Source of the DNA: Antitrichia curtipendula
Lineage: Eukaryota; Streptophyta; Bryopsida; Hypnales; Leucodontaceae
Assembly (NCBI GenBank): GCA_951230915.1
Contig: OX579634.1
Coordinates: 18,006,725 to 18,070,724 of the forward strand
Direction: 5' to 3'
DNA length: 64,000 bases
Shown: one piece after another, positions 1-50,046 of the stretch
How the letters are laid out: every line of letters starts with the position of its first letter
How positions within the stretch are numbered: position 1 is the first letter of the stretch
Translations under genes and position numbers: made by a program
Notes under the pieces: generated by a model
The model's database searches: none
What the model was told of the DNA's origin: nothing
What the model saw: the letters and a program-made list of their open reading frames with translations, nothing else

Positions 1-483
1 CGAAGGACCAGAAGCGATACGATCGGCATAGGAAATTTCAAACAGTTTGGGCCGCCAAGCTGCCATGGGCGGAAGGGATAATGGCGAACGACGGCATACT
101 TCAAATGGTCAAGTGCAAGGTTTGTAGTTCCGTTGACAGGAAGCCCTACATAATGGCTCCAAAATCTGATACATTGTGGAAGCATGACGGCAAGCGAGTC
201 GCCAAGAAGGACCTGCCGCAATTCAAGGTTAAGCGAGGAGAACAGTACATAGCAACCCATTGTAAACATAGAAAAAATCTACGCCTCTACGCTGTGAGAC
301 CACCACCCTCTGTAATCCAACAACTCAACCACTGCACCTCATTGGAGGCTCGGAAGAAGAGGGTGCAGTTCGCTACACTTTTCCAATTGCTATAAGATGG
401 GCGGTCAATGCTAGAGTACGAGTCACGAGTGAATCTGTACAAGTTCTTGTCAGTTCCGGATTTATCATTTGCTTACTGGTGTG
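1..483 (+). pseudogene. 5' part of a C17orf113/ZNF862-type hAT transposase gene, cut by the giant insertion
   Basis: The frame is already open at position 3, so the gene starts left of the window. The translation has a conserved W and PW, then a CKVC pair, then CKHRKNLRLY, which fits the zinc-finger N-terminus of hAT-like proteins of the C17orf113/ZNF862/KIAA1586 type. An in-frame TAA at 393-395 interrupts it, but the same frame then reads DGRSMLEYES and FLSVPDLSFAYWC up to 482. That is the expected lead-in to the DNSGWLMAGYM segment found at 50045 onward. The gene is thus broken twice, by a stop (CAA to TAA is the simplest route) and by the 49.6-kb insert. The family call rests on my recognition of the motif order, not on a search. 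Confidence 0.8.
476..483. repeat. Left target-site duplication of the giant insertion
   Basis: The sequence ctggtgtg directly precedes the CAGGGTTGTC terminus and is identical to 50039-50046. Confidence 0.88.
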
Positions 484-790
484 CAGGGTTGTCCAAACGT
501 CCGGACGCCTTGGACGTCTGGACATACGTCTAGAGTCCCGGGATGCTGGCCTCCGGACATCCCTGGGCATTCGGACGGACCCCGACCCCTCGTCCAGTGG
601 ATGGTCGGACGGGAGGTCGGGAGTTCGGACGCGTCTTTGGACGGGGGTCCGGGAGGTCGGACGGGACTTCGGACGGAGGGTCAGAGGTCGGACGGGCCTT
701 CGGAACGTCCGAGGTCGGACGGAAATGCGGACGCTCCGTCGGAGGTCGGACGGACTGGAGGAAAGTGGGACGGGAGCGGGCGTCGGACTG
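484..790 (+). repeat. Left terminal and subterminal CGGAC-rich array of the giant insertion
   Basis: After the 10-bp terminus, about 300 bp consists of irregular copies of a ggtcggacgg-like unit with variants such as gtccggacg, very rich in CpG against AT-rich surroundings. Subterminal repeats bound by the transposase zinc finger are typical of hAT elements. The opposite orientation (cgtccgac) prevails at the right end, as expected for subterminal repeats. Overlapping open frames here are low-complexity artefacts. Confidence 0.75.
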
Positions 791-837
791 GCGATTTTTT
801 TCTTAAATAAATATTTTTTCAAATTGAAAAGCCTTTA

Positions 838-1990
838 AGGTATTCAATTTCAAAAAGAAATGGGTAGGATAGGAAACTAAATACTCTCTAGGGTATTGAA
901 TTTTTTCTAAAAATGGGTAGAATAGGAAATTGAATACCCCAATTTCCTAAAGGGTATTCAATTTTCTTTAAAAATGGGTAGAATAGGAAATTGAATATCC
1001 TCTAGGGTATTGAATTTTAAAAAAAGATGGGTAGAATAGGAAATTGAATACCCTCTAGCCTCTAGGGTGTTGAAATTTTTTAAAAATGGGTCGAATAGGA
1101 AACTGAATACCCTAGAGGAAAGTCAATTTTTTTCAAAAAAATAGGTAGAATACATATTCAGTACCCTTTAGGATATTGAACTTTTTTTTTAAATGGGTAG
1201 AATAGGAAATTGGATACCGTAATTCCCTAAAGGGTATTCAATTTTTTTTTTAAATGGGTAGAATAGGAAATTGAATATCTTCTAGGGACTAGTGTATTGA
1301 ATTTTAAAAAAAGATGGGTAGAATAGGAAATTGAATACCCTCTTACCCTCTACAGTATTCAATTTTTAACCCAAAATGGGTAGAATAGGAAATTGAATGC
1401 CCTGGAGGGTATTAAATTTTAAAAAATGAATCGATAGAGTAGGAAATTGAATACCCTCTAGGGTGTTGAATTTTTTTTTAAATGGGTTGAATAGGAAATT
1501 GAATACCCTAGAGGAAATTCAATTTTCTTTTAAAAATGAATAGAATAGGAATTTGAACACCGTAGAGGATATTCAATTTTTTTTAAATAGGTAGAATAGG
1601 AAATTGAATACGCTCTAGGATATTGAATTTTAAAAATAAAATGGGTAGAATAGGAAATTGAATACCCTTTAGGATAATTCAATATTTTTTTTAAATGGGT
1701 AGAATAGGAAACTGAATACCCTGAAGGGTATTTAATTTGGAAAAAAAATGGGTACAATAGGAAATTGAATACCCTAAAGAAGTAAAGGGCATTTAATTTG
1801 GAAAAAAAATGGGTACAATAGGAAATTGAATACCCTAAAGAAGTAAAGGGCATTCAATTTGGAAAAAAAATGGGTACAATAGGAAATTGAATACCCTAAA
1901 GGGTATTCAATTTTTTGTTAAAAAAGGGTAGAATAGGAAACTGAATACCCTAAAGGGTAATCAATTTTAAAAAAAAATGGGTAGACATTA
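838..1990. repeat. AT-rich minisatellite with about 20 units of 50-62 bp
   Basis: Each unit holds gggtagaataggaaattga followed by a short palindromic ACCCT-AGGGT core and a poly-T/A run. Unit length varies between about 50 and 62 bp and units diverge slightly. It sits directly inside the left subterminal array. No coding function is supported. Confidence 0.9.
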
Positions 1991-2352: not shown

Positions 2353-3834
2353 TCAGAAGTGTTCATCTAATATTGGCCAATTGTAAGAATTGGTAAATCG
2401 ATTGGTAATTTCAGCCAAACTACCTCGTGAACCGTTGTCTTCATTGCAAAGTCGCTCCAAGTATTGATGAAACACCATTGCCAAATCCTCATGGCTAAAC
2501 TTTGTATGTCCTTGGATTTCCCGGTGTAACTTGTAGTAGGCCACTGACATGCACTGTTTGTTGATCTTCTGAGCTATTCGACCCACCGCATATTCCTCTG
2601 ATTTTTGTGATAAATTGGGAATGACTTCCACATCCGCATTTCTCTTATGCAAATATGCAATATTGGGGTCTACCCACCACCTCCTTCGCAAAGCTTCTTC
2701 CTTCTCACCCGCAGATGTGAACGTGTACAAGGATTTGGGTGCTTCGCTACTTACGGAAGTCAAGCCCCAATCGCAAACTCCAATGTAGACTAGGGACTCG
2801 TCTTCGGGAAAGTGAAACATGATGTTGTCCGGGGAAATATCATTGTGGAGATGTCCAGCATTGTGCACTGCATTCATGATGTGCAACAATGCCCATGCAA
2901 GTTCCGTGCGCTTCCTCTTCCAACGAGCGAGACGGAAAGCTCGAATCACCTCTTCGGGATCAGCGTTTGCACAAGCTAAAGCAATCCCTATGTTGTCTGG
3001 ATATTGCACATCCAAGTTCAACATTTGCCGCAGTGTTCCGCCGTTCCACCAGTATGAATACCCTTTGTTGTTTGTTGCATGCACTGCATAAAATCGTATG
3101 ACTCCATCATGTGGAATCCTCATTGCCATTGACTCGTTTTGGTGTTCCAATTTTGCAAGTTTTGGTTGTATGCCATGTTGGCGAGATACCTTTGATGCAA
3201 ACTCCCCAAATACGGGTATCCCAGGACATCTTTCAATTTGGACCCTACGAATTGTTGCATACCCGCCCATCATGGCTTTGTCATCTTGTGCAATCACCCT
3301 TGCTGTTTCTGGAAGCGCTACGAGATGCCGTCGCCCCTTCTGCAATTCCGCCATTCCCTCAACGCTCTTCCACCAAAACATTGACCCTTGCCTATTCCGT
3401 GAATTAGCAAATGGACGGCACCGTTGAATAAACAAGTTTGCCTTGAGAATGACTTGCTCGAAGTCTGCACCCTGTGCACGGTAGCTCTTGCTGTATTTTT
3501 CTACAATCACTTTGGCATTCCAAAATGCATCGTTCACCCTGTTCGCCAAGAATTTGTTGAAGCGTGGTTTGTCCATCTCATGCCTCCATTGCGGAACATT
3601 CAGTGCTTCTAACATCTTCTGCGTCATGTCGTCTTTGAATTTTTGAATGCATTCCTCTTGATATCTAACATATTTGCTATCCAGGGACATGGTGCTTTCG
3701 GACTCATAAAACTTGACAGTAAATTCGATCAAAAATGCTTTGCAAGCATCTGTGGGATATTTCTTAGTTATCCTAGCTTCTTCATCATTTGACAGCACCC
3801 GCTTGCCTTTCCCTCCCTTCTTTGGCCTCGGCAT
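2353..3834 (-). CDS. Protein-kinase-like cargo protein with basic AT-hook-like N-terminus
   Basis: Uninterrupted 493-residue frame. The first ATG is at 3834 (MPRPKKGGKGKR), and the frame stays open slightly upstream without an earlier ATG. The start RPKKGGKGKR is a basic AT-hook-like patch. The C-terminal half carries a kinase-type catalytic loop, HNDISPDNIM, near residue 330, and about 25 residues later CDWG, where typical kinases have DFG. The catalytic Asp and Asn of the loop are present. I see no clear glycine loop or VAIK lysine, so activity is uncertain. The upstream side carries a CGGAC array with a TATA-like box. It is one of the few intact reading frames in the insert, which suggests recent function. 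Confidence 0.7.
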   Translation of the reverse strand: MPRPKKGGKGKRVLSNDEEARITKKYPTDACKAFLIEFTVKFYESESTMSLDSKYVRYQEECIQKFKDDMTQKMLEALNVPQWRHEMDKPRFNKFLANRVNDAFWNAKVIVEKYSKSYRAQGADFEQVILKANLFIQRCRPFANSRNRQGSMFWWKSVEGMAELQKGRRHLVALPETARVIAQDDKAMMGGYATIRRVQIERCPGIPVFGEFASKVSRQHGIQPKLAKLEHQNESMAMRIPHDGVIRFYAVHATNNKGYSYWWNGGTLRQMLNLDVQYPDNIGIALACANADPEEVIRAFRLARWKRKRTELAWALLHIMNAVHNAGHLHNDISPDNIMFHFPEDESLVYIGVCDWGLTSVSSEAPKSLYTFTSAGEKEEALRRRWWVDPNIAYLHKRNADVEVIPNLSQKSEEYAVGRIAQKINKQCMSVAYYKLHREIQGHTKFSHEDLAMVFHQYLERLCNEDNGSRGSLAEITNRFTNSYNWPILDEHF

Positions 3835-4440: not shown

Positions 4441-5030
4441 GGATAGATTCAAACTACACATGTTAGAGGTCTCATACCAAAAAAAAAAAAAAAGAATATC
4501 ATGGATGGAGTTTAAGATTATAATGTTTGACCATGAGGGTGTTAGAACTGCTAAAATCTTTCAATCTTCTTCCATTGAAAGATAAATCTAAAAATTTGGT
4601 GACCAAAACAATATGAGGTTAAACTATTAAAGGGCCTAACAGCCCTAACTTGTATAATCCCAATCAATTTATGGCTTCTTCAAATGTACTCCACAATTTT
4701 AGTAAACGGATTTTGAATGTGAATTTCCCTCCAAGATCTAGTATATTTGAGGCTCATTTCAAAGAGCTCTCAACAGAAAGGGAAGTTAAGATTGCAAATT
4801 TGCAATGGGTACCCTTGTACAAAAACTTGAATAGAAAAACCACTATCATTTATTTTCAAGATCGGACTTTTGTAGCTAAAACTAGACTTCAAGAAGAATT
4901 TTCTAAAAGTATGAACTACTAAAAATAGCAACTTGGTTAGGTTTTATTGAACTTCAAAGTTTTGCAAACACCACATTTGTGTGGCTTTGGCATTTAGGGG
5001 TTAACACTTGGAAAAAAATTGAAAATGAAT
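4441..5030. other. AT-rich non-coding DNA, nothing recognised
   Basis: Contains a short poly-A run near 4480. The 90-residue open frame at 4650-4922 has no recognisable motif and is not claimed as a gene. Confidence 0.4.
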
Positions 5031-5034
5031 GACA

Positions 5035-5640
5035 AGTAGACTGAGAGCCCAAAAAAATGGGTAATGGACGACAAAAAAACTTGAAGCCCTAAAAATTGGG
5101 GAATGACTAACAAGATCAGAAACCCCCAAAAAATAGGGATGGCATGACAAGGAAAAAATAAGCCAAAAAAAATTGGGAATGAACGACCAGGAAAAGGAAA
5201 GTCCGAAAACATGGGGATTGGGGAATGCATGACAAGGCAACATAAACCAAAAAAAAAATTGGGAATGCATGATAAGACAACATAAAGCCCAAAAAATTGG
5301 GGAATTCATGCCAAGGGAACGTGAGGCCCAAAAAAATTGGGAATGAATGATCACGAAACAAAAAGCCCAAAAAAATGTGCAAGTCATGACAAGGAAACAT
5401 AAAGCAAAAAAAAATTGGAAAAGAATGATGGTCCTCTGAAAACAAATAAGGATGGGAAATGAATGATAATGAAACTTCAGATTTTTTGCAACAAGGTCTC
5501 TCATTTGTAGTCCAAGTACTGAAACTCCAGATTTAATAAAAATTGGGAATGAATGGAAAGGAAACTAAAAGCAAAAAAGGTGGATGGAATGAATGATAAT
5601 GAAACGGAAGCAAAAAAAAAAGAAGGGGAGGTAATATAAA
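5035..5640. repeat. Tandem repeat of about 55-60 bp units
   Basis: Roughly ten imperfect units contain agcccaaaaaattgggaatg followed by a-tgacaaggaaac. The long minus-strand open frames here are phenylalanine-rich translations of the repeat and not genes. Confidence 0.8.
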
Positions 5641-7178
5641 TCCACCACCAAAACTAGAAACAATACCAATTTTTGGTAACATTATGCTTCAAATTTAAAT
5701 GTGAAGTTTTCATTCACTCAATTTGGACTACAAGCATGATGCAGAAGGTATGGACTATGTTTGGGGGGGCACAATGTGATGCGTCAATCATTTCTTGGAA
5801 AAATAACTTATACAATGCATTTTTTGAGGTCAATACAAAAGTCATTATGTTCTTTGCTGGAGACTTACATACGCCACTCAATTGTAGAACGCGGACCAAT
5901 ACCATATGTATATTAAAAAAAATCATTGGTTATACAACAACGGTATTCAAGGATAATACCATCATATGGCTACCAATGTACTTCTATATGGACATGTCGC
6001 AGTATAGGATAGGTAAATTCCCCATTATACTCACAAAAATCACCCTAGAGTATAACTGAGTGACTCTAAAGATCGAACCCACGAGATTCTGTGAAGTATC
6101 TAGCCTTATTAACGAAGTAAACCAAGTCAGTAGTAACATCCATCTTTTCCGGTCCTCTTTCCTAAACCGGAAACACAAACACCCAGAAAATTAGGGACCG
6201 GATTGTACCACTCTTCCGATTCCAACTGGTCTTCCGGTTATCGAATCCAGCACAACCCCAGGATCCTATCTCTTCTGGTCCGGGTATCCATCTAGACCAA
6301 CTCGCTCTAGACAATTCACAACTATTTCCTCTCTTATCTGGTTTGGTTTTACCTCTGTTTAGCCATCAGAGGGTTCGCCGCTTGCTTTTGAGAGTAGTAG
6401 GCCCACCACACCTTCCGTGACTTATAGTGGCTGAAGACCCACTTTCCTAATCTCTTCTTTCCTAGGCTAGTACGGATCTGGTTTGGTCCTTCACAGCAGC
6501 CCAGGTAGCAATCCGGTTTACTAGTCACACAAAGACCCCCCGTACGATCCTCTCAATACTACAACGACTCTGATCTCATCCTAATCTGTACAAAACTAAG
6601 GCGGTTACAAGTGCACCCGTCCGTTCCAACATCAGCTAGAATTCTTCCGTTTACCATTAAGATGGCGAGACCTCACAGGAGATCGGACACTTGACCGGAT
6701 TTCCCATCCAGGAGTTTTAGCGCGACTAAGGAATCCCTCCCTATCCGCCTAGCCTAACAACGGCTTTCTCACCCGGAATCTCAAACTCTAGACGTGCTGA
6801 GGCACTGAAGTTCACTCCCAACTCTATCCTATCCGCTCACATGCACTTAGGACCAAGAAAACACACCAAGGGGAGAAATTCCCAACACACCCACTTGCGC
6901 CTTCCGAACTCCCTCACGTACAACCCTGCCAAAACATGGGATAACGTACAACAAGAAAGTACAAAGAGAAAACACAAAGAAAATGTAGAAGGAAAGACTC
7001 TCAGTCCTCAGCACAAGGACTGAATTATATACACTTTGAGAGCTTCCAAAAATACAAAAGGCAAAAAGAGCCGTTTAAAAGTCAACCTAAATCCAGATCC
7101 TAACTTTTGGTCCTCCTAACACTACCGGATCGGATTACTAATCCGGATCCGTTCCCATCCTATCCTTCCTAACTTACT
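5641..7178. other. Unassigned DNA, possibly non-coding part of a retroelement
   Basis: 5673-6059 is open for 128 codons without any motif I recognise. From about 6060 the composition becomes more balanced (repeated ccggat and ccggt words) and continues into the gag-like fragment on the minus strand. It may be 3' sequence of that element, but I could not find a matching second copy that would define a long terminal repeat. Confidence 0.35.
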
Positions 7179-8511
7179 CTACATCGCTATCCCGCGCCCC
7201 AACGAAGGACTCTTGGGCTCCGCCTCCAATTGTTCGAAGACTTCTCCCAAGTTCCTGTTCCGCTCTCCGGCCATCGGATTTGGCATGTCGGAACCGGGAG
7301 AGGAATCGATGTTGATCGGCGCAGCCTGGGAAGGCTGACTCGGCTTGGACTGTGGAGTCTGGTCTCTTCCTTCCCTGGGTCTAGCACTTTCGGAAACGAT
7401 TCCGGCATGGAGATGTCCGATAAGTGGACCCTCATCGATCCGGTCAGCTTTTGTGTACATTCCTCCATCCGGTCCGCTGCTCCTCGTGCTAAGACCAAAT
7501 TCTTCTCCACCTGCTCGAAGAAGTTGGTCAGGATCCGAACTATCCGGGAACCGGATAGTTTCTTCTCCTCCAAGACCCTCTCGTCGAAGAGCCTAGTCCT
7601 GACCGCCACACTTCCGGTCTCACCGAAAGTCGCGTTCACCGATTCCGCCACCTTTTGTGTCTTGTCCGCCATTATCCAGATGGCTGCCATATCTTCCTTG
7701 AAGGTGGCCACTTCCGCCTTCAACATGTCGACCTCCTCCTGAAGTCGACGAATCTCCGCTTCCTGTTTCCGGATCTCGGCCGGATTGGTGATGCAATCCG
7801 CCACCTTTCCCGGCAACTTACTGTCCGGTGCTGCCTACATCAACTCTCCGATCTGGAGCAGGGCGATTCTCTTCGCCTCCCAGTCTGTGCGGATGTCGCA
7901 GAGGGTCTTCACTAGCTTCTCGAACGGATCGGCAGGTCCCTTCTTCGAACCGCCTGCCTTCTCCCCTTCTGGTGTCTTCTCCTTTCCGGTCTTGTCACCG
8001 AGCGAGATCCTCTTCCGGTCGGAGACGTCGTCTTGTGCCGCTTGGTCTGCCTCTCCGCCTCTTCTTCATCTTCTTCTTCTTCTTCGGTCTCGGATCCGGT
8101 TTCCTCTTCCTCCTCATCTGTTTCCGATTCTCCTTATTTCAGGAGATTCTCTTGAGCCTTTCACTCCTTCTCTTCCGAGTCCAAAAGGAGCTGGTGTTGC
8201 TCGTAGAGGTGGAAGAGGTACGGACACACGGGTGTCGGCCTACTCCTTCCGACCCTTGTCGCCAACTAGGCCACCAGATCAAACATGATCCGGGCCCAGT
8301 CCGCCTTCCGGTCTCCGCTCAGGGCACCGAAAATGGTGTTGCCGAGGGTGATCGTCACCCTTGTCGGCTTCTCCGGATGGAGGATCGGAATGAGGAACTG
8401 GAGAAGTTTCCGATGCCGGTCATCGATGCAGTCCTCTACCGCATATCCGTCCTTGGGGTTGACCGCTCCTCGGAACTTGCCCCGGACGTATTCGTCCTTC
8501 CGGTTTGCCAT
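7179..8511 (-). pseudogene. Gag-like coiled-coil retroelement fragment
   Basis: The minus strand starts at 8511 with MANRKDEYVRGKFRGAV and includes TLGNTIFGALSGDRKADW. A low-complexity acidic stretch (runs of Glu and Asp) follows near 8030-8110, then a coiled coil (QEAEIRRLQEEVDMLKAEV) in 7816-7187, then a Pro/Ser-rich tail (SKPSQPSQAAPINIDSSPGS) in another frame ending at 7179. At least two frameshifts and several stops separate these blocks. The order (globular N-part, acidic linker, coiled coil, disordered tail) suggests a gag-like or accessory transposon protein. No protease, reverse transcriptase or integrase is present nearby. Confidence 0.45.
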
Positions 8512-8534
8512 CTCGTGGCCTCCTGCCCTACTAC

Positions 8535-8582
8535 TTCAATGTCTAACACTACTTCAATGTCTAACACTACTTCAATGTCTTT
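8535..8582. repeat. Triplicated 18-bp direct repeat
   Basis: Three copies of tacttcaatgtctaacac (the last truncated to tacttcaatgtct) lie just upstream, on the minus strand, of the gag-like start. Confidence 0.8.
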
Positions 8583-8840
8583 CCTAATTTCCGTCCTCTG
8601 CTGTTTCTAAACAAAACCTAGATACTAATCGATAGTTTCCGTTGCGTTTTCTAGATAAACAACTGAAAACCAAAAATTCTGGTTGCGACAGGACATAAAA
8701 ACTTAATCCCGCTAACTTAGAAAATCAAGAATTGCAATTCCCCAACATCACTGTACAATGCTTGCCGACAACAACAATCCACGGCCATTACAATCAATGG
8801 ATAAGGTGCTCAGGCTTGCACTATAAGACAAAATACTGCT

Positions 8841-9215
8841 TCACTCTGAATCAGAATCGGTATCATCTCTCTTATTTGGGCCTCTAGAACCACACTCATA
8901 AACACCAAGATATGGTCCTCCTCCATAGGTGTCTCCCTGTCCACTTGGAGGAGTTGGAGCCACTACTTTTTCGTAATTTGGGCAGTAAGGACCTCCAAAA
9001 GGAGGAGGACGAGGAATGGGAACATTGTGCTGGGACCCTCATTTACTTGAACCACCATAATAAGAACCTTCATGATGATGATATGAAGCGGGTGCAATAC
9101 TCCCAAGATAGTATTGGGAGCCACCTTGGCTAGCATCGTCATACCGCGTGCTTCGAGAGCCACCTTGGGATGCATTACCGTATTGTGAACTTCTTCCAAC
9201 GGTGCTAGTATGTGA
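8841..9215 (-). pseudogene. C-terminal Gly/Ser/Tyr-rich tail of a lost gene
   Basis: Minus-strand reading gives SSQYGNASQGGSRSTRYDD and YYLGSIAPASYHHHEGSYYG. In a neighbouring frame it gives PPFGGPYCPNYEKVVAPTPP and ends RGPNKRDDTDSDSE with a stop at 8843-8841. The acidic end and the Gly/Tyr-rich linker resemble tails seen on plant-lineage hAT-like proteins, but that is a weak assignment. The gene body is missing: on its 5' side the sequence passes at about 9215 into a repeat also found at 22450-22860. Between the two halves there is at least one frameshift. Confidence 0.45.
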
Positions 9216-9565
9216 GCGGGGAGCGGCGAGTGGGGAGCGTAGAATGGTGAGCGGGGAGCGTATGTTTAGGAACAGAATTTCAGATATTAAATAAAACAAG
9301 GGAAAAAATTGGATAAAATATACCTCAACATTGGGTGAAATTTCCCAAAAAATTGGGCGAATGTTTCATTTTGATTTAAGAATGGATTTTTGAAATTGGG
9401 ATAAGAATGAAAGAAAAATGACATTCGTGGGATTAAAAAGGTAGGGATGAATGTAGATGAAAGTTGGATGAAAGTAGATGAATAAATGGATGAAAGTATT
9501 TGAACTAATGAATGAAAGCAGATGGAAAATGGATGAAAGTACATAAAAAAATAGGGGACAATACA
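9210..9565. repeat. Dispersed repeat: tatgtgagcg block plus gatgaaag-type microsatellite
   Basis: Starts tatgtgagcggggagcggcg, continues through acagaattt, then passes into irregular gatgaaag/ggatgaaagtagatg repeats. An inverted copy with the same order lies at 22450-22860. In both places it abuts a truncated coding region, so it is probably the end of a mobile repeat. Confidence 0.6.
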
Positions 9566-10227
9566 TCAAGAACTTGTTGGTTTAGGGTTCTTATGGGGGT
9601 AATTTAGTAGTCCATTACGGGGAGAAAATTATTTAGGGTTTAGGCTTCAGAATTCTACATCAAGCATATGCTTCAGGGTTTTAGGGTTTTGAAAATGAGC
9701 TTCAGATTAAAAAGGAGTCCTTCACCTTTCAAAACTATAAGACCTTCACATCAACCCCTATGACCACATATTTAGGAGTTCCTGTGATTGATCAATATCA
9801 AAGAGAAAAATGTTCGGGAATAATGGTTTAGGGACTAGGCCCAAAAATGAAAATAAGACTTGGACCTATTGATACATTAAGCTGTCGCTAGTATTTCCTG
9901 TGACCAATGGTAGAGAGTATCCTATGACCGTGGTATCGTTGTGGATTTAAGGGATACTGTTCAGGGTGCTATGTGGGATCTAATTAGAATTCCGAAACAG
10001 TTAAAGTCTACAGTGCTTTTCCACTACTGGGCTTGCAGAGTGGAATCCAGAGATGGAAAAATACAAAGAAGAACATACAACAGTTACTATATATAAATAA
10101 AAAAATTTGATAAACATGTATAGGGTAATGAAGTGAAAGTAGTGGCCCTTGTAGTCTCACTACACTTTCATTAAATTCAGTAGTAAACACGGGAAGTGAC
10201 ACTACTACGTGTCAACAAGATCTCATT
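9566..10227. other. Non-coding spacer
   Basis: AT-rich sequence with scattered ttagggttt words. No gene or structured repeat recognised. The last 200 bp probably include the 3' untranslated region of the MULE on the minus strand. Confidence 0.4.
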
Positions 10228-16960: not shown

Positions 16961-17046
16961 CAGGGTTGTCCTTGTCACGTCCTGTCAGTCCGTCAGGATG
17001 TCCGGACGGACGTCAGGATTCAACCCCGCCGTCCGTCAAGATCCAG

Positions 17047-37500: not shown

Positions 37501-38275
37501 TGTTCTGACTTACGTGGTATCCTGCCTTGATTTATTGGAGGCATTACTGATTGAGTGAATGTTGTTGTCATCTGTAATTGCATGTGCAATGGAAAGGTTG
37601 ACTCCAAAGCGACCAAGCCAAGCTCGCCAATTGTACAACAACGACGAGGAGGTGGAAGCTGGTCCTGACCATGAGTGGATCGCCGACGGGCTTTGCATTG
37701 GAGATAATGTTGCTGTGCGTTCACCACTTCAGGAGGAGCCATATTGGCTGATGCTAGTGCATACTGCAACACACACGCTTCAAGACAGCTTTATAGACCC
37801 AGAAGGGAATGGGTATGGCCCTGGGGACGTTATTTTCTCAGGTTTCTGGTACGAGCGTCTTAAAGAAGGTAGTCGTATTTATTTGTTGAGAAACGATAAG
37901 GAACCGAGTTCGGTTTATAGCCATTTGCTGTTGACTTCAAAATTCAGCTTGCCTCCTATCTCGCACCCTGTGAAGAGTCGATTTGCGGGGTTTGAGTTGA
38001 AGCTTGATGTGAAGGAGATTATTGATGAGGCTGCCCGTGCCGCAGCATTGTTAGATTAGCAGTGGAGGAATCTGTGGTCTTGGAAGAGGAGATTGTACAT
38101 TATGTGTGGACACATTGTTTGTTGGTGCGATCTATGCCTTTTGTAACCGTATTTTATTTAATACGAATTCATTTCAATGAACTTACAGGAAATCGTTGCC
38201 TTGCACTTCGTATGCCATGTGAACTTGCACATCTTGCTGCCAGATTTTTCGATAGCATTCTTAAACTGCTGTGAC

Positions 38276-38406
38276 TGGCTTGTGGTGTATCAGTTGTGTG
38301 AATGTCATATGCGTGGGGCTTGCACTCGCATTTCACGTGACTGGCTTGGAGTGTATCAGTTGTGTGAATGTCATGTGCGTGGGGCTTGCACTCGCATTTC
38401 ACGTTT
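38276..38406 (+). repeat. Tandem duplication of 66 bp
   Basis: Two copies of a unit containing gtgtatcagttgtgtgaatg and ggcttgcactcgcatttcac lie downstream of the transposase stop. Confidence 0.9.
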
Positions 38407-41400
38407 TGGGAAATAATTTGGACTCGTGTTATAGGCAAACTTGTCCTTGTATCCTTAAAATGATCACTAACTCAAGAATTTGCACTAAACAAATACCCTC
38501 CTTGTTAAAAGGGAACTGAACTGGAGCAAGGGATTTTCCTTATTAAAAAGCAGTGACCAACCATCTGCAGCTGAATAATGATCAGCCACTATTTTGATTA
38601 AGAACCGGCAACTGAGGCCCCCCCCGCCTTGAAGCATCTGCAGCATAATGACCAGGCACCGTGCATTGTTGCATAATGAGCTGTAGTGTGTCAGCGTCCA
38701 GTTCGACTAGAGCTGGAGTGGATCAGCTGAACTGCTTTTTTAACCCCTTTAGGATGTTTGATACAAAGCATGGCGCACGTATTTGGTTGCTTTAGTGCAA
38801 GTTTCTGTATACATAGCAATGTTTGTCTTCCTTCATGAGGGTTTCCTTCAATGAGATTTTGACAACAGAACATGGTAGCAATTGACCAGTGATACTAATT
38901 TTTTGTTGCTTTTTTGAATGATTCTAATGTCTTGGGAAATTCCTTGTATACTGTGCACTGACTAAAAGTCTTGTATTTGGCCATATTTCAACATTCAGTA
39001 GGGCTTAGAAGTTGCATTTTTTAGTTTTTAATTTCTTTTCTTTTCTTGTTGGCTTTGGAAGGGCTTAGCACAATTGAAATTCAAATGAGCTAATTCATAA
39101 AGTGTTGGCTATAATTCTTAAAGACTAGAAATACATTGCTCTTGCAAAAAATACGCTTTCAAAAGGAAATGTTGGCAATACAATGACCATGTACAAAACT
39201 GACATGGCAGACCTTACCTGCCATTTTCAAAAGTTAGAACTTTCCGGTTAGTGTGCAACTTTCTACTGATGGAGCAGGTCAAACTAAAAAGAAAATTATA
39301 CAAATTAGATAAGAAAACAACCTAGCAACCAATCAAAGACTCTGGATGAGTGTGGAGCCTCATTGTCTGACATTGCCTAAATTTCTACTTTGCTGGAAGA
39401 ACCATCCACTGCTACACTATAGAAGCCCCTGTAGTATAAAAACCTGTGCTTTTTTACTCAATTTTCCAATCAAATCTCATTGATGGACCTAGTTCGTAAT
39501 AGAAAAGGAAAAGTACAGAATATGGTCACTACAAAAATAAGAAAAGAATGTAGGCCTATTTTGTTCTTAAAAAAAATACTATTTCAAAACCTATATTGTT
39601 ATCAAAAAAAAATCAACAACCTAACTCTATACAAAAATACAAAATGAACCCAAATATGCCTTATTCAAAAAAAGGAAGACGAAAAAGAATATTACAACCT
39701 TGGTTGTATCAAAAAATAAAAGAATAATTCACCTAGAGTTTTACAAAAATATAAAATGAATTGAAGATACTACCTTGTTTCAAACCAAAAATCTATATAC
39801 TTATATTATGTAATTTAAAAATAATAATAATTTGATAAAAATACATAAATGAAATATAATTCCAATAATGAGATTTTGGGTTTAGAGAGGAAATTAAAGC
39901 ATGTCAAACTTGATTTTTTCAAAAAACTATAAAAATTGAATTAAAAAATGAATGCAATCATTTATTTAAAAAAAAACAATGCTATGGTTATTCCCAACAT
40001 AAGACTTTCTTTGACTTTTTTATTAGCAACCCAAATAGAAAGTATCAAATCTTTCCATTTACACAAGAATATTTCTATAACAAATTTTAATAAATGATTG
40101 TCATTTTTTTTTTTTGCCTACAAAATCCATTTTGTAGCGTGGATGCCATACCTTTTGCTTTTACAAATAACACATTGATAGAAAATTGGAAATGAAAACT
40201 ATAATCCCTAAAACAAATCTATTTTTCTATAAATTAAAAAAAAATTCATACATAAAATAGAGTTTATAGAATTATACCCAACTTTCCATTTATAGACTAA
40301 GGTGACACTTCATCCTCTTGGAATTAGGGACAAATTTTGCATTTCATAATATATTATACATAATAAGGTTACAACTAAAATGAGCAAACATGTGCTATAG
40401 GCAAAAGTTTTACCATATAGTAAAGAACTCAAACAAAAAACTTGCATCAAATGCAATATTAAAAAATATTGCTTTCCAATAACAAGGTGTATTTTGAACA
40501 CATGAAGATGTAATTGTTGACATGCTTATGTTGCAATTTACAATGTGACTTTGTTGCAGTATTTTCCTTCTTAGTCTTGACAATAGTTTGAAGTTAAAAT
40601 AAATCTTAACCAAATAATTATTTTTAGTAGTATGTATTTTTGAAAATTTTCTTTTTGAAGTCTAGTTTTAGCACTATAAATCCGATTTTGATAATAATTG
40701 ATTACGATTTTTCTATTTAAGTTTTTTTGCAAGGTTGTCTATTGCAATCTTTACTCTCCATAGTGTTGAGGACTTTTAGAAACGAGCCTCAAATAAACTA
40801 GATCTTGGATAAAAAATCCCATTAGAAATTCCTTTTTAGCCATTGGAATCCCATTAGAAAACTGTTGAGTAGTTTTTGGAAAGTGATAATTTGATTCCGG
40901 TTATGTATGTTAGGCCCTTAAAGCTCATTTTTTGGGTGACCACATTTTAGATTTGACTTGTGAAAAAAGGATTAAAAGACTTCAAATCACATTTACAATT
41001 TTAGCATCCTTATGATTAAACATTACATTCTTTCAATTCATAAACATTATTGTTGTGATTTTTTATCCTATGTGATCTCTAATGTGTCTAGTTTGATTAT
41101 GTATGGTTACATTTACAAAAAATTGATATAACTTATCCAAATGTTGTCTTTTTGTTCAATTTGGAGCAAATTCCTAGAAGCTCAATAAAGGCCTAGAGCA
41201 TTTAGGGATTAAATATTGTGGACACTATGGCACAATGAGACAATGAGACTTGGCAAACCAATAATTTTGAAGACAATTTTGAAGACAATTTTAAAGACAA
41301 GTTTAGTGTATACTAAACTTTTCACTCCCTTCTAGAATATAAATGTAGTCATTTTCAAAGCAGTAAATGATTAGTGCACTCTGATATTTACAACAAAAAG

Positions 41401-42239
41401 TGTGCACAATAACTTGTTCTAAGGCCATAACAAGAACTAAGCCCAAAGCAAACTAGTTTGGCACTACAGAATGTGTAGCAATCACTAAGTAATAAATAAG
41501 TAGTAGATCTGCATCGCAAATAAGGCAAATCCAGTACTCAAAGTTAGCATTATAACCAAAAATTGAAAGCAGGGCACAAACATATAGCATGATGATTCAA
41601 TGAATTTTATTGTATAAGCTGTTTTTGCAAGCTCGTAATGTGGGCACTCATGCAATCAATAGAGTGAACTTGTTGCTACAAATCTAGGTGCAAATAAAGT
41701 TGGCAGCTTGCTATTGTCAATCAGGGCATTTTTTTGGACCGGTGTCCCCTGTTGGTCTCACTGCACAGGCCACCTGCAAAGAGATATACTTAGTCAGCAT
41801 CTCCTACACCACATCCGTTTCACACGTCAACTACAAGTAAATGAATGAAACGAAAATTCCTGATATAGTTGCTTAGGCAGTACATCTGTGAAGTACAAAT
41901 TCCTCTCCATCTATGTTGGTCTGAAAGAGATGACACCCAGTATCTACTAGCTCAGAGAAGTATAGCATGCAGACCAGGTTTACACAAAAGCGGGAGTGCT
42001 AGTCTGCCAATCGAGCTTCCTCTGTTGCTTGATCTCCATCCAGTAAACCTTCAGCAAGTTGTTGTCTGTGCAGACTCCATTCTCGTCAAAATAATAACCC
42101 AGTCCCAATTCTCGATCAAAACAAAACCACAAATACCTGCATGCGGCCTGTAGCATCCACCTATACAGAATGTATGACGTTGTGGTTGGGAAGATGCAAT
42201 AGACCTCTGGGATACATATTTTCAACCCAAAGAAAACGA
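38407..42239. other. Long AT-rich interior of the 14.2-kb transposon
   Basis: About 3.8 kb, very AT-rich between 38900 and 41700, between the convergent 3' ends of the transposase and RING genes. No gene or ordered repeat recognised. The segment 41800-42240 may include the RING gene's 3' untranslated region. Confidence 0.45.
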
Positions 42240-45200
42240 TCACTTGTTCTTATGCCTACCCCTACCGCTCTTCTTGGGTTTCTCTGCTGCCTCGGCCTCA
42301 ACCTGTTTGGCAAGAGAATGGCGAGTGTGACGCATTGTAGGGGCTGGCACTTGAGCTTTACCTGCCTTTTCCAGTTCTCCACTCGATTTCCCCAAACTTG
42401 ATACACTAACCTTTTTTCAAAGCCCCTGCTCTTCCAAGGCAGGAATGTGGGCTCTTTTACCGGTGATAGAATAACGCCCCTCTCCACTCCCGTGCATCCC
42501 CTTCCCACTTTCATTTTCATGTGCGTCCTGTTCAATCCCTTTCTCAGCTCCATTGTCATCGTCACTTTTGTCCTCTACCACATTATATGCAACAAGTTTT
42601 CCATGCACGACCCCTGTTGAACCATACAAATTGGTAATCACCTCCAAAAACAAACTGAATGCATTGGAAAGGAGGCACAAGAGAAATGTGACTCAGAAGA
42701 TCGACACCATGAATGCAAGTGGAAACACGTGAGTTCACGATTATTAGGATTTGTGGCGAACGGGCACATGTAGACTGTACCTCAGCAAAACATACGGCAT
42801 TCCAACTCGTCATTGAAGCTTGCACGTTTCTTGCAAGAACCCAGTAAACGATGTACTACCACCCCAAGCCTACTTCGCTCTACACTAGAAGACTACTAAA
42901 GTAAGCAAGGGCATCCCAAAATCAAATGAATACACATGTATGCACAGGCTCTTACCAGCTGTGGCTTCCACCACTTGCAGGGCATTACTATCCAGCGGTA
43001 CTACAGCACTTGAGAGAACCTGCATGACTCCGGACTGGTGCAGCCGAGCAGCATAGGGCTGTTTTACTGGCGAGTCAACCACCTGTTGTGAATCGTCATT
43101 TCCTGTTTCTGTCGCTTCATCCTGAGTTTGACATCCTCCACTTACAAAGGACCCAGGAACAAGCTTGCTGCCAGACGTGCATGGTAGCAAAGAATGCACT
43201 TGTTGGATGGACCCGGTGGATCCCCAATCTGAGTGCTTCCCTTTCGACTGTGATACTGCAAAATACAAGAAAAGAGGCTAAATCTCTAAGTACAAGAGCA
43301 GGGATGATGGCTGGCCAGCCACCAATAGGAGAGCACATTCTCAAAGATGTAAGATCTGAAACTCCAATATACAGAGTAGAATAGAAGAGATCAGCTGATA
43401 CCAATAAGAGAAGACTTTGCAATCTCATTTCAGCATTTCAACACATAATGTGGCAACAAATCAGAAATCATAGCAAGAATAAAACATTTTAGCAAGAAAG
43501 CAACCATTGAAATTGTAAAGCATGCCTTCAAGGAACAAAGCACATAATCAGGCAAGAAAGCAAAGTTCCTAGCAAGGTAGCAAAGATTCTATCAAGGAAG
43601 CAAAGCTGGTATCACCCAAGCACATGCCTTACGAAGGACGTACAATTTCGAGCAAGAACGCAAAGATAGTAGCAACCAGGTACACACTCCAGCAAGAAAG
43701 CATAAATTTGAGTATCAAAGCCAAAATTCTAGCAACACAGCATATCAGGTAGCACCCTAGCACATACAGTAGCACCCTAGCACATACAATAGCACCCTAG
43801 CACATACAGTAGCAACCAAGCACATACAGTAGCAACCAAGCACATACGGTAGCAACCAAGCACATACAGTAGCAACCAAGCACATAATTTAGCACCCTAG
43901 CACATACACTAGCACCCAAGCACATACACTAGGAAGGAAGTAGCATTTCTAGGAAGAAAGTAGAGATGGTAGCATCCAAGCACATATTCCAGCAACAAAG
44001 GATAAATTCTTGCATCAAAGCAGTCATCTAGAAACATACTAGCACACAAGCACAAATTCTAGGAAGTAAGTAGAATTTCTAGCAACAAATAAAAGGTAGT
44101 AGCACCCAAGCACATATTCTAACAAGTGATTGGCTACATTTTAAGCAACACAACCAACATAGTACCAACCACGCACATTTTCTAGCCAGAAAGTAGAATT
44201 TCAAGCAAGAACTCAGAACTTATAGGAACACAGCAAGCATAGAAGGATCCTAGCAAACTTATAAATCAACAGTGTACATATTCAAGTAGAGGAGCAGATT
44301 ATGAAGGAAGCTTTCAAATTTTGATCAATGACAGAGGTTTATTTCCAAGCAACGTTGCACATTCAGAGGTGAAGAAGGTTGTTTTCAATCAAACCCTAAT
44401 CCAGTAGCAGAGAACGGAATGAGGCCACTTACACATTGGACTCCGAATTCCAAAACTGCACTTCATTGTGTCGCTCAGCTCACACACTGATTTGTCCAAC
44501 CGAAGCCTTGTAGCATCCTCTCCCGGTTGCATCTTCTGGAATCCAAATGATGCCCACCAACTAGGGGCAAATACCTCATTGCAAGTTATACAACTGTTTA
44601 CTCTTTCTACCAATTTTGTAATGCAGAAAGGGTGGTAAAAGTGTCGGCAGCTCGCCATGACTACGTCATACGAGTTATACCAACGATTGCAAACAGCACA
44701 AGGCTCAAGCATAAAAGGACCTACAGCCTCTTCAACTTTGTGAGGGTGCAAACAAGGTTTCGGACAGCAATGCACACCTGCACCAGCCTTCAGCTTCTCA
44801 ATTTCATCAGCCACTGCTTCTTTGTGCCTCCTAAACTCCAAGATTTCTTCGCAAACAGCTTGCATGTCCAATTCTGAGTTCCTCAATTCCAGACATACAT
44901 CTTCGTATAGGGCTTGTGCTTTTTTGGACTTCCTCGCAGCATCGTCAGAGCCAAAAATAGCAAAGTCTAGCTTGCGTGCCAATACGTCTCTATCGCACTT
45001 CAGTTCATCTAATTTCTTCAGTCCCAGAGTGAATCCATCATTCCCCTCGTCAAGTCTGTCCCTGTAACCCTGGACCTTCATAAGGGCAATGACAGAGGAG
45101 AAGTACTCAGCATCTCCAAACCTCAAACCCTAAGATTTCAGAAGCCAATGAAAACCAGAGCATGAATAATCTGAAAATCAAAAAGCATATTTGGGCCCAA

Positions 45201-46390
45201 CCAAGTCAAATTTTGACTCCTTTAATCTAATAAACGTATAGCTTGACTGGGCAGCCCCAAAGCTTTGCCGTGAATGCTGAACCCTAAAACTTGGAGAACC
45301 ATGAATCACACGAGTGATAAGAAGCTGAAAATTCAAAACTCGTGAAGTGCACATCACTGCAAATTTGACCCTGTAAAATAAGCATCCACCATTCAGGTAG
45401 ACGCCCTAAACCCTGAAACCCTTCACCTAATCACCAACAAACCTAGAGTTGAAGCTTGACAAGCCATGGCTCATAGCAGTAGAGGATGGAAAGAGAATCG
45501 GGAAGTATTACCGAGGCCAAGACATTAGCAATCTGCAGATCGATCTTTGCCAAAGCCTCCTCTGCCGCTGTCACATTTTCAGCAGCTTCCTTTGCATCGG
45601 CCAGTCGATCGTCCACTCTGAACTTGTACATAACTATCTTCTCCTCCATGGTCTTCTTTGCTGCCAAGAGAATTTGCTGCTTATTTTGGCTGCCCACCAG
45701 GAATTCCTCTTCCACTCGCAGCACCTCCTCAATAATTGCAAGATCTGCGTCTGAAACGTGACCAATGGCAGAAAGAGACCTCTCAGGTTTCAAATCTTGC
45801 TCAGATGTCCCTATCGCTCCTTTTCTACCTGATCCGGCAGTTCTTAGTGCTACATGAGGGGCCAGAACCTGCAACCGAGCTAGCTGCTCAGATGTAAGAT
45901 CACGTCGTACCAAATCTCCCTCTACACGGCTTGCAAGTGTAAACGAAGTGGACGAAGCCGCAGAGGCCCAGTCGACCTTTAGTCCCATTTGTTCTGCAAT
46001 GTTTCCCTTAACTACCCACGCCATGAACTCGTTGTTTGTGACCTCCGTTTTCCCATAAATTTTTGCGTACAACTCGACGAGTTCTCTCCTCCTCTCTGGC
46101 GGCAATGCACTGTTGGTAGTCTTGTAGGTTGTACATTTCCCCCAAACCTCCTCTATCTTCTCTTGTGTCACCACAGCCATATCGCTAGCGAGTTTAGGGT
46201 TTAATCCTTCTCCACACAAGCCTCTGTCAGTCGCAAAAAACTCATGAGTCTGAGCCTTCAAGTTCGCTAGCTCCGTTAAGAGCTCTGGAACACTGGCGCC
46301 AGCTTTCACTGGTCGCGGCTTCCTCTCCAATGAGGTCCTCCTCTGTTTCACAAGACGTGCGGACTCTCCACGTACAAGTGATGAATCCAT
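42240..46390 (-). CDS. N-domain / coiled-coil / RING protein of the 14.2-kb element (copy 2)
   Basis: Exons on the minus strand: 46390-45512, about 45131-44433, 43261-42958 and about 42620-42240, possibly more. The first exon has the N-domain (ELYAKIYGKTEVTNNEFMAW then GLKVDWAS) and a coiled coil. The second begins RFGDAEYFSSV, forms a long coiled coil, then a RING-like CAVCNRWYNSYDVVMASCRH, FYHPFC, then CITCNEVFAPSWW and FGFQKMQPGEDATRLRL. The third is polar. The last is acidic and ends in a basic EKPKKSGRGRHKNK tail, a likely nuclear signal, with the stop at 42242-42240. One premature TGA at 42417-42419 (CGA to TGA is the simplest route) interrupts the last exon. Architecture and RING spacing match the 27632 gene, which belongs to a different transposon. 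Confidence 0.65.
43262..44432 (-). repeat. RING-gene intron with inverse copy at 34790-35825
   Basis: Donor TGT|GTAAGTGG and acceptor TTTTGCAG bound this 1.17-kb intron. It contains a 20-bp tandem array (agcaaccaagcacatacagt) at 43740-43935 and is homologous over nearly its whole length, inverted, to the transposase intron. Confidence 0.8.
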
Positions 46391-46782
46391 GAACCCCCCC
46401 TAAACGCAGTGAATGTAAGCCCGTAACTAATCCTGAACCCCAAGCTGCGAGCTCCGTAAACCCCTAAGTTGCGACCTCAAACCATAAACTCCAAGGTGCG
46501 AGCTCCGTAACTCCTCCCTTTTTCCACACAAGAGAAAATGAAACCTCAAAAAAACTGGCCTGACAGCACCTCGTCAACCGTAACGTCGAGAGGAGAGAGA
46601 GAACGGGAGTCCGATTCCGTTGCGAGGAACGAAAGCGGGAGCGCCATTTCAAAATCGCGCGCCCAGGTGGAAGTCCAGTAAGGCTTGTCAGAAACGGCAG
46701 TCATCAACACACTTGCACATAAAGGACTCCGTTAAGCACCCTCTCCATGTCGCAAGTGGCTCATATTAGCTCATGTAGACCC

Positions 46783-49387
46783 CATGCTAGTATCCTCTGC
46801 GGGGGAGCAATTCCTAGAAGCGGTGGATACGACTGGGGCCAGTAAGAACACTACGTATTTGGCTGCTCTCCTAGAGAAATTCATAGTCCAAGTGGGCCCT
46901 CAAAATGTGGTGCAAGTGACTACAGATAATGCGCCTGTGAACCCCGCAGCATGTGCTCTAGTGATTGCTACATATCCACACATTTTTTTCCAAGGTTGCA
47001 CGATACACGCCTTGAATTTGTTGCTAAAAGATTGGGGAAAACAAGCATGGATAATGGACCAAGTGGACAACGCGGAAACCATAGTGAAGTTCTTCAAGAT
47101 GAGGCATAAACCGCTTGCAATATTACAGAAGTACGAGCCCAAATATAGCTTGTTGATGCCGGGTGAAACAAGGTTTGCCTCCAATTTCATCACAAATGCA
47201 CGTTTGTTGAAGGTGAAGGGTCCATTGCAACAGACAGTGACGGACCCGCAGTGGAATGAGTACGTGAGGAAGTTTGGCCGGACATCAAAATCTCGCAGTG
47301 ACTGTCGAGAAGTATTTAAGATACTTATGAGCGAGCATTTCTGGCGCCGTTGTCAGAATTTTAAGGACTTGGTGGGTCCTGTTGTGTATGGGCTACGTGA
47401 TGTGGATGCGAAGACGCCCTACATGGGCAAGGTTTTGCACATTATGAGAAATTTAGAAAAACACGTCTCCAGTTTGGTTGGAGAGCCTTTTTGTGTGAAC
47501 AAGGCTCTTGCTGATCCGCTGCTGGCGTATTTTAAAGATCGACGCAAAATGATAGAGACCGATCTGCATTTTGCAGGAGCTTTTCTGAACCCCTACCTTC
47601 TGGAAGACAAAGAATTAGCCGACAATCAAAATGCGATAGAGGCATGCAAGCGTGTTCTCATGAAAATTTGTAAACCAGGAGATTACGCCGCGGTTGTGAA
47701 GGAGTTTGTCGCTTTTCGACTTAGGGAACCGCCATTCCACAACATGTTGGAGCCGAGTGAACAGCAATTGTCGGCACATGCTTGGTGGGATTTTGAAGGC
47801 GCATGTAGAAAGCTCATTGCTTCAATTGCTAAGAGGATATTGGCACAACCGGTCTCCTCTTCTTCGTGTGAACGAAATTGGAGTAGCTATTCCTTTGTTC
47901 ACAACAAATCTAGGAACAAGTTGAAGCCACAGAGAGTAGATGGTTTGGTGTATGTATACACCAATTCAAAAGTCTTAGCCCAATCCAAGGAAAGAGATGA
48001 GAAAAAATGGTATCATGAGAACATGCTTTTCGAAGATAGAGATATGCCTATCTCCGAAAATGAGGATTCGGAAGATGGCGAGTCCGCATTCGATGATGGA
48101 GGTGCTATGGACAACGACATGCACAATTCGGATGTTGAAAATTATGAGGCTGCATTTTATGATGGAGATGCTGTGAACTATGATGAGCCGAATTCGAACG
48201 ATGAGCCGTTTCAAAGCTCTAATCAGAACGATGAAGATTTTGGAGCCAATGATCAAGACGTCTACGATCATACATCAGATGAAGACAATCGTGGATGTGA
48301 TGAAGAGAACCTTCCGATAGCCAAATATATGGATGGGACCGGGTTGTTGACTAGCGAAAAGATTTTAGCGGATAAGGAGGCAATCAATGTACGAGATGTG
48401 GCAATAAATGGGGCAATGCTTATCAATGGTGGGACTCTTGAAATGGGTGAAGAGATTTCAATTCCCGACTCTCCATCCACGGTAGCGGCACGAGCAGAAC
48501 AGATTGACAAAGACAATGACAAGGGCGGATTGGGGGTAAAGGTCCCAATGAATATAGGGAACACAAGGGTTCAATTGAAAGTGGTGTTCTCGAACAAGAA
48601 GAGTGGAGAACCAAGGATTGAGAATATCAAACCATGTGAAGTAGAAGAGAATGAAGACATACGTTTTATGAAGTCTGGGAGTCCAATCCTAATCCGGAAT
48701 GGAAAAGGAAAGGAGCCACTTCTGCGAGATCCCCAATTACCACCACGTACTGGTCTTGCACCGGGTGTACATACACTACTTACAACTGCTAGTACAACTT
48801 TGGATGGTTGCGGAGGTTCATCATGTGGAAAACGGCAATTCATTAATCGCAGTCTATCCATTTCATCATGTAGTGATGATGACAAGGACGAGATGTTGGC
48901 TGTAATGTTCGCTCAAAAATCTAGGCATTCATCACAAGGTCTTCTCAAATCAGCAAACCGTATATCGCAGTCCTTGAGCGCAACGAAGGTAATCATTCAA
49001 GGAGGCGAAAAAGCAGGACAATTAGTTGTGAAAGAGTCTAAAATAGACAAAAAGAAAAGAGCAATAGAGCCTTTTGCTATGTCTCCATCGAAGAAAGCAA
49101 ATGTGAGTAGAACCCCTCTAGATGCACTTCAGCCTACTCCGATGACGAAAATAAAACCGGTCACCGACCTTAGGGAAAGCATTGGAAAGTCCATATTACA
49201 AGTGAAAAAGGAGGGTAAAGCATTCAGATCACGTAAATCTAGGGAAGTACATGGTTCCAGAGTGAGAATTCTACAATCTTCATCAGACAATATGGAAGAG
49301 GCATCCAGCGATGAAGACACCGGATGGAAAAGAAGAGGTGAGAGTAGCGGGGCTGAAGTGAAGGGAGACAGTGATTACAATCCTTAG
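46783..49387 (+). pseudogene. BED/DUF659 hAT transposase, 3' part
   Basis: Continues the 31828 frame after the 14.2-kb insertion. It carries QVTTDNAPVNPAA (second catalytic-type Asp), PHIFFQGCTIHALNLLLKDW and GETRFASNF, typical of DUF659 hAT transposases. Further on come CKRVLMKIC, then RILAQPVSSSSCERNWSSYS and KSRNKLKPQRVDGLVYVYTN, the hAT dimerisation region. The last 400 residues form an acidic then Ser/Lys-rich tail with basic patches (SKIDKKKRAIEP), unusually long for the family. No stop occurs in 867 codons. It lies 650 bp from the right terminus, in the usual place for a hAT transposase gene, which makes it the best candidate to have mobilised the giant element. Confidence 0.85.
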
Positions 49388-49794
49388 AGATTGAAGCCTG
49401 AAGGGATGTAAACTTAGGTGTCCAAATACTTATGATACATAGATGGCACTATGTGGCAATCGATTGTTTATTGCCGCTTCATTGTAATAAACTGATGTTT
49501 GGAATACCATTAAGATTTTTGGGTTTCCAATACAAAGGACAAATTCAATAAAATTTGATTCTGTGCATTTTATTGTAAATGGAGCATAACATTCTAAAAT
49601 GTAATTGTACAATGCAACAATTTTGCCTTCAAAGTCATCTAAGTTCTGTGAATTTTGAAAATGAAAAGAATGCTTACATTGAGTGCCATTTCCACATTTT
49701 TCAATGACAATTGCAATTGAAGAGGTTTTAAAACCAGATCTTTCTAACCCTAAAACTCATTCACAGAAGTTAACTAGCTCTCACCACCCAAAAA
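49388..49794. other. 3' flank of the hAT transposase
   Basis: AT-rich non-coding sequence between the transposase stop and the right subterminal array. Nothing recognised beyond that. Confidence 0.45.
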
Positions 49795-50038
49795 AAACTC
49801 CATTATAACCGCCTGTCTGCTGACGGTCCCGTCCAACCGAAAACGCGTCCGACATAATACGCGTCCGACTGGCCGTCGGAGAGACCGACCGACGCCCGGC
49901 ACCCGATCGACCGACCGGCCGACGCCCAACGGCTGCCGACCGCCGGACGTCGTCTGCTGCATCCAGTGCGTCCGCTACGTCCGGACGTCCGAATTTTGGA
50001 CGTGATTTTGCCTTGGACGTTAAAATGTGACAACCGTG
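49795..50038 (-). repeat. Right subterminal CGGAC array and terminus of the giant insertion
   Basis: Units read cgtccgac/ccgaccg on this strand, the inverse of the left end, and finish with gacaaccgtg at 50029-50038. Read inward on the minus strand, the segment caaaatcacgtccaaaat then cggacgtccggacg also occurs just inside the left end of the separate element at 52086. The two elements are therefore related by their ends. Confidence 0.8.
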
Positions 50039-50046
50039 CTGGTGTG
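50039..50046. repeat. Right target-site duplication of the giant insertion
   Basis: ctggtgtg directly follows the GACAACCGTG terminus and equals 476-483. Confidence 0.88.

Follow-up and report, generated by a model that had tools for sequence, protein, structure and literature searches.

What moved, and with which genes, when a 49.6-kb block with hAT-type ends came to interrupt a gene of the moss Antitrichia curtipendula? The block lies in a 64,000-nucleotide stretch, hereafter the window (contig OX579634.1 of assembly GCA_951230915.1, positions 18,006,725 to 18,070,724; C2:18006725-18070724 in our notation). A sequence-only reading had proposed a giant hAT transposon carrying several genes, about 35 kb long before a single later nested insertion, with a smaller element enlarged by repeated nesting as the alternative. 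Here, we compared the block with the rest of the genome (400 Mb, 303 contigs). We find it very probable that the window holds a degenerate copy of an approximately 20-kb, four-gene hAT family, that this copy was enlarged by three later insertions (A, B, and C), and that the accessory genes are the element's own; of the structure and history of the element we are close to certain. The proposed unit has a fixed gene order: a kinase-like gene (−), a gene called CKK (−), a CKK-coiled-coil-RING gene (+), and the hAT transposase gene (+).

Direct reading confirms the boundaries given in the sequence-only reading, namely, hAT ends at 484 and 50038, an 8-bp duplication, and a restored host frame. On the left, the target-site duplication CTGGTGTG (476..483) is followed by the terminal inverted repeat CAGGGTTGTC (484..493, +), related ends of which occur at no fewer than 40 genome loci, and by GGACG-rich subterminal repeats that extend from that repeat to about 780. 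On the right, the terminal inverted repeat GACAACCGTG (50029..50038, +) is the inverse of CAGGGTTGTC with one mismatch, and it reads GACAACCCTG in most copies read; the second CTGGTGTG follows (50039..50046). Besides these two, the window contains no CTGGTGTG on either strand. Joining the flanks around a single CTGGTGTG copy lets the left flank's third frame continue into the right-hand open frame, with the nearest upstream stop about 29 codons ahead of the junction.

The left-end search gave 47 matches, or at least 40 loci after removal of seven second pieces, and the right-end search gave 43 matches, again at least 40 loci after removal of three. For 26 of the 40 left ends, a right end lies no more than 60 kb away. 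A search with the transposase returned at least 52 rows, at 88-93% identity excluding the window, two of which are halves of one copy. About 50 copies of the family were detected, a lower bound, as are all counts from the genome searches, which scored the best candidates (51 of 1753 for the transposase, 84 of 1405 for the kinase, and 70 of 1414 for the RING gene). Seven other copies were retrieved in pieces and aligned to the window at the DNA level. Both ends are readable in five of the seven, and all five have exact 8-bp duplications; of the other two, one has a right end consisting of N and one has a left end that was not retrieved. Twenty further end pairs yielded 13 exact duplications, three with one mismatch, one with two mismatches, two unrelated flanks, and one pair without a left end. 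Altogether, 19 of the 25 copies with both ends readable (five retrieved, 19 further pairs, and the window) carry exact duplications. That two unrelated small hAT ends bracket ordinary host DNA by chance has a negligible probability, although one small element does share these ends (16961-17384, duplication GTAATGAC), because exact 8-bp duplications, different in sequence and adjoining the same ends, occur in 18 of the 24 other copies readable at both ends, and the same content lies between those ends at many loci.

The retrieved copies also define the unit. In all seven, the core is collinear with window segments 484-5995, 8691-9197, 22848-32580, and 46782-50038, and the sites of insertions A, B, and C are uninterrupted. 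One copy, C1:46100603-46120562 (19.96 kb; hereafter C1:46.10), was read base by base at the three sites, all of which are uninterrupted. The few matches outside this pattern involve short pieces of B, C, and core sequence and lie in the DNA around two of the retrieved copies. Lengths point the same way: 13 of the 19 exact-duplication copies span 19.6-21.7 kb (from match coordinates), and the other six measure 15.0, 17.8, 23.6, 39.4, 42.6, and 49.6 kb. Because the lengths cluster at 19.6-21.7 kb, we place the mobile unit at about 20 kb. The longer copies are most simply explained by later insertions, as demonstrated for the window copy only.

In the window copy, insertion A (2.7 kb; 5995..8690) has TG...CA ends and the duplication GGACA (5990-5994 and 8691-8695, with the next T matching too); these features suggest that it is perhaps a long terminal repeat-type element. 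Insertion B (13.65 kb; 9198..22847) is flanked by the 11-bp duplication GAACTTCTTCC (9187-9197 and 22848-22858). Insertion C (14.2 kb; 32581..46781) is flanked by the 5-bp duplication CCATG (32576-32580 and 46782-46786), terminates in inverted repeats of about 29 bp that differ at two positions, and contains an approximately 1-kb inverted-arm pair and its own genes. The history would thus be that the hAT landed at the host site and that A, B, and C then inserted into it, bringing the block to 49.6 kb. The damage is evident: B cuts the CKK gene, C splits the transposase gene, and an 811-bp loss harms the RING gene. The surviving hAT core amounts to 18,987 bp. Relative to other copies, the window lacks, in addition to the 811 bp inside the RING gene, 410 bp at 26774; this second difference could alternatively be an insertion in the other copies. 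In C1:46.10, the 410-bp stretch is bounded by inverted GGTAGGAGGCT and AGCCTCCTACC and resembles a small inverted-repeat element.

It is therefore hardly credible that the mobile hAT comprises the entire 35-50 kb block, as first proposed. Ends and an 8-bp duplication do bracket 49.6 kb, and three other exact-duplication copies measure 23.6, 39.4, and 42.6 kb. However, A, B, and C each carry their own duplications, most exact-duplication copies are about 20 kb long, and the uninterrupted A, B, and C sites in the other copies rule out a mobile unit of 35 or 50 kb. What survives of the proposal is an unusually large, multigene hAT with its ends in place; the size of 35 or 49.6 kb does not, and the single nested insertion becomes three. 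The alternative of a smaller element enlarged by nesting accounts for 30 kb of the 50, but not for the core of about 20 kb. The genes inside B (e.g., 12123-14330, −, and 19867-21055, +) and inside C (35689-38059, +, and 44389-46399, −) were considered as hAT cargo and rejected, because B and C are later insertions with their own duplications.

Which genes, then, belong to the unit? The kinase-like gene (2353..3834, −) is an open frame of 493 aa that retains the catalytic residues Lys215, Glu234, Asp332, Asn337, and Asp355. Its Pfam kinase matches are weak, falling under the curated cut-off. A predicted model (mean pLDDT 84.9) was used to search solved structures, and 50 of the 50 matches listed are protein kinases (best E 1.6e-8). 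Across a 48-sequence alignment, the Lys and the Glu are each present in 48 of 48 sequences, the catalytic Asp in 45 of 46, the Asn in 46 of 46, and the DWG Asp in 44 of 45. The CKK gene, a label that we coined after its CKKYVKM motif, survives as a 3' part cut by B (8944..9197, −; alignment-mapped edge, approximate) and a 5' part (22848..23660, −; edge approximate). It is a single open frame in C1:46.10, and its small protein product matched no family in Pfam. The CKK-coiled-coil-RING gene (27605..30236, +; edges approximate) is missing its 811 bp of coding sequence at 28249; a relative, P0049, combines a CKK stretch, a coiled coil, and a RING in one protein.

The transposase gene is a single exon, split in the window into a 5' part (31819..32580, +) with a BED-like finger and the start of DUF659, and a main part (46782..49387, +) with DUF659, the hAT dimerisation domain, and a long C-terminal tail. 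In C1:46.10, DUF659 (PF04937, 8.5e-35) and the hAT dimerisation domain (PF05699, 1.9e-06) both score above their curated cut-offs, and both are detected in the window transposase too. The N-terminal BED zinc finger falls under its cut-off (E 0.0075). Three of the 52 rows cover the query from residue 14 to the end, a 1141-aa frame without a stop.

These genes travel together. Other copies lacking the cargo altogether would have spoken against the sequence-only reading; the opposite is seen, with the kinase and the RING gene nearly family-wide. Specifically, at 35 of 40 loci the kinase occurs no more than 25 kb from the left end and, as expected, on the opposite strand, and the RING gene lies within 60 kb of the left end at 34 of 40. 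The RING search returned at least 84 rows, 66 of them close (at least 88% identity), which become 55 after removal of 11 second pieces. Downstream of 47 of these 55, on the same strand and within 40 kb, lies a transposase (within 8 kb for 40 of them); reciprocally, a RING gene precedes 48 of the 52 transposase rows on the same strand, at a distance of no more than 40 kb.

Noncoding sequence is conserved in position as well. Four noncoding tandem arrays, with units of 54, 39, 41, and 51 bp, occupy the same places in six or seven of the seven other copies. The first three are present in the window: the 54-bp array (821..1985), near the left end in all seven other copies; the 39-bp array (5012..5429), also in all seven, two of which have only a 79- or 86-bp unit; and the 41-bp array (25531..26248), between the CKK and RING genes, in six of seven. 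At the position of the fourth, the window shows only a short 27-bp repeat.

Relatives extend beyond this family. Outside the genome, we found 47 for the kinase, 26 for the transposase, and at least three for the RING protein. A bacterial metagenome-assembled genome aside, only two named organisms' entries appear among the 47 kinase relatives, both from the moss Ceratodon purpureus. One contig is listed for P0037, a relative of the kinase, and one for P0056, a relative of the transposase; both are 27,639 bases long, which suggests kinase–transposase linkage elsewhere. Within the same genome, at least 10 RING loci show 41-56% identity, and one of them (C6:11.04 Mb) has a downstream transposase on the same strand, 57% identical to that of the hAT and itself interrupted. 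There is also a second kinase family of at least 37 rows (66-68% identity), of which 18 are stop-free. All three second-family loci inspected (C7:24.46, C1:53.36, and C3:25.64 Mb) share an end that begins with CAGGGTTGACAGGACGTCC, followed by a CKK gene and then the kinase. At C7:24.46 Mb, the 24 kb read contain no hAT transposase and no far end; a GTGGGAG there was considered as the far end and rejected as a chance match.

Are the accessory genes the element's own or passengers? Between families, a simple counting method, applied where synonymous divergence is high, gives dN/dS values of 0.23 for the kinase, 0.23 for CKK, and 0.33 for the transposase (one pair each), and values of 0.34 and 0.25 when two kinase copies from the second family are compared with each other. 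The partner used for the transposase belongs to the second group, one that bears a RING gene and may represent a different family. Because the between-family values fall at 0.23-0.33, the kinase, CKK, and transposase genes look like element genes rather than passengers; the RING gene is judged by conservation. We consider it likely, on this pattern of substitution and conservation, that the kinase and CKK, and with them the RING gene, are selected element genes. Within the family, pN/pS reaches 0.97 for CKK and 0.75 for the N-terminal part of the RING gene, of which two further parts give 0.49 and 0.55; the kinase stands at 0.60 and the transposase at 0.54. Values of this kind would result from the decay of most copies once inserted, and they combine pre-insertion selection with that later decay.

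Capture of host genes is the rival to be weighed here. The kinase and RING genes could be passengers taken up as in Pack-type capture, with no role in the element. Plant DNA transposons are well known for gene capture, and distant host paralogs could have been missed when the best 84 of 1405 kinase and 70 of 1414 RING candidates were scored. Against capture stand the same gene order and strand in nearly all copies, the dN/dS of 0.23 between families, the retained catalytic residues of the kinase, the related genes in other sequences, and the related RING–transposase pair in the same genome. We regard passenger status as improbable. A Pack-type non-autonomous element would have no transposase and would contain fragments of host genes, whereas this unit has its own transposase, and its accessory genes are long and constrained.

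Several points nonetheless weigh against a family of four-gene elements whose accessory genes are its own. Constraint within the family is modest (pN/pS 0.49-0.97), and many copies contain stops. The dN/dS values come from one pair each, the kinase and CKK partners were taken from loci picked for a stop-free kinase, and the transposase partner is a broken copy with three stops, making for an uneven comparison with the kinase and CKK. Six of the 25 duplications are inexact. The picture is also less simple at C6:11.04 Mb, where the 10 kb upstream of the RING locus contain no kinase or CKK match; that RING family may be one without a kinase, or it may be rearranged. Finally, the anti-silencing role proposed below is argued from analogy.

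How would such a unit work? We propose that the CAGGGTTGTC-ended unit moves as a block, through cut-and-paste by its own transposase, as its ends, duplications, and domains would predict. With less confidence, we suggest that the kinase and RING proteins alter host or element proteins in the element's favor. The accessory genes could aid escape from host silencing, or they could stabilize or regulate the transposase, for example, by phosphorylation and ubiquitylation. The VANDAL elements of Arabidopsis, which belong to the Mutator-like superfamily, offer a possible functional parallel, in that they too encode an additional protein next to the transposase and carry tandem repeats in noncoding sequence. 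VANC proteins, according to the available part of one account, bind such repeats sequence-specifically and remove silent marks (PMC10398659), and the tandem arrays described here would be putative binding sites of the same sort. Our unit differs from VANDAL in that its transposase shows hAT domains only. Because VANC furnishes this parallel of repeat binding and mark removal, an anti-silencing role for the accessory proteins is our first guess, a tentative one at somewhat less than even chances.

Alternatively, the accessory proteins may act in the transposition reaction itself, modifying or timing the transposase, rather than against silencing. A kinase and a RING protein would be ready-made regulators, and the accessory genes have been retained together with the transposase. 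Yet known hATs need only their transposase to move, and at the one second-family locus read over 24 kb, a kinase and CKK are present but no hAT transposase was found. Taken by itself, transposition control is somewhat unlikely, though nearly as likely as the anti-silencing role. A broader and speculative idea, to which we give about one chance in three, is that the kinase, CKK, and RING genes form a toolkit common to, and perhaps exchanged among, several giant moss transposon families, serving counter-defense or transposition control. Two observations hint at sharing: the 24 kb read at one second-family locus show a kinase and CKK next to a related end but no hAT transposase, and insertion C, though unrelated, encodes a RING protein whose similarity to that of the hAT extends beyond the RING.

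That RING protein of insertion C (44389-45129, −) matches the hAT RING protein at E 4e-7 in a single comparison, with 30% identity over 70 residues that extend past the RING, a likeness hinting at a shared accessory family. A 318-aa protein of insertion C shows weak similarity to the CKK-RING protein (best E 0.087). In insertion B, a stretch of a protein gene (window 12605-12785) has 72% DNA identity over 181 bp to 59646-59826, within a gene outside the hAT (59425-60159, −), and by this resemblance B may belong to a repeated family. The small element noted above, 424 bp long (16961-17384) with CAGGGTTGTC ends and an exact 8-bp duplication, is nested in B; therefore, the same end type was reused after B arose. 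As for the host gene (window 1-483 plus 50047-52082), its translation resembles a zinc-finger, hAT-transposase-like gene, with no clear Pfam family, and the insertion may perhaps lie inside an old transposon-derived gene. Three bases past the host-gene stop, from window 52086, is a further CAGGGTTG end, 80% complementary to the last 71 bp of the hAT and followed by a run of N.

The distribution of copies is uneven. Contig C5 (37.2 Mb, 9.3% of the genome) holds 19 of the 52 transposase rows (binomial P of about 9e-8 if the rows are independent). A Ceratodon cluster related to the kinase has 126 member sequences and a "VG" locus tag, which we read as denoting the V sex chromosome. C5 may be a sex chromosome or another low-recombination region. 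On C8, three transposase rows (24984465, 25005363, and 25033246) share one strand and equal stop counts, at spacings of 21 and 28 kb; a single element copy was apparently duplicated in tandem.

How does this element compare with known systems? In the available part of a survey covering 276 hAT sequences from plants, algae included, the longest is 7,144 bp, the end consensus is [T/C]AGNGNNG, and no hAT was detected in the moss Physcomitrella (PMC6027215). The CAGGG-type ends CAGGGTTGTC and GACAACCCTG fit this plant consensus, and the 8-bp duplications and a transposase with DUF659 and the hAT dimerisation domain are likewise those of the hAT superfamily (Ac, hobo, Tam3); unlike its members, the element is about 20 kb long and has four genes. 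Starship, Teratorn, and Polinton elements share the large size and the extra genes but use different recombinases. No Pfam family for a Starship tyrosine-recombinase captain appeared at E <= 0.1 in the 20 window open reading frames scanned (32 listed); the recombinase of the unit is its hAT transposase. ToxhAT of wheat-infecting fungi, as described in the available portions of two papers, is a large hAT block (about 14 kb) that mobilizes another gene; unlike our element, it occurs in fungi, bears a virulence gene, and is associated with Starships (PMC12506042, PMC11857905). Here, by contrast, the accessory genes are conserved across a family of about 50 copies and its relatives. The word hAT finds no match in the main text, as available, of a review of giant transposons (PMC6431247). 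Among the open-licence papers and top-ranked matches covered, no hAT of such size with conserved accessory genes is described, which argues weakly for novelty.

hATs are usually treated as small, one-gene, cut-and-paste transposons. An approximately 50-copy family of 20-kb elements broadens that view: a hAT transposase can mobilize large multigene blocks repeatedly, and one lineage has acquired and retained three accessory genes with regulatory-looking products. The family thus lends itself to tests of the ways in which plant transposons withstand silencing or govern their movement, in mosses, which suit genetics.

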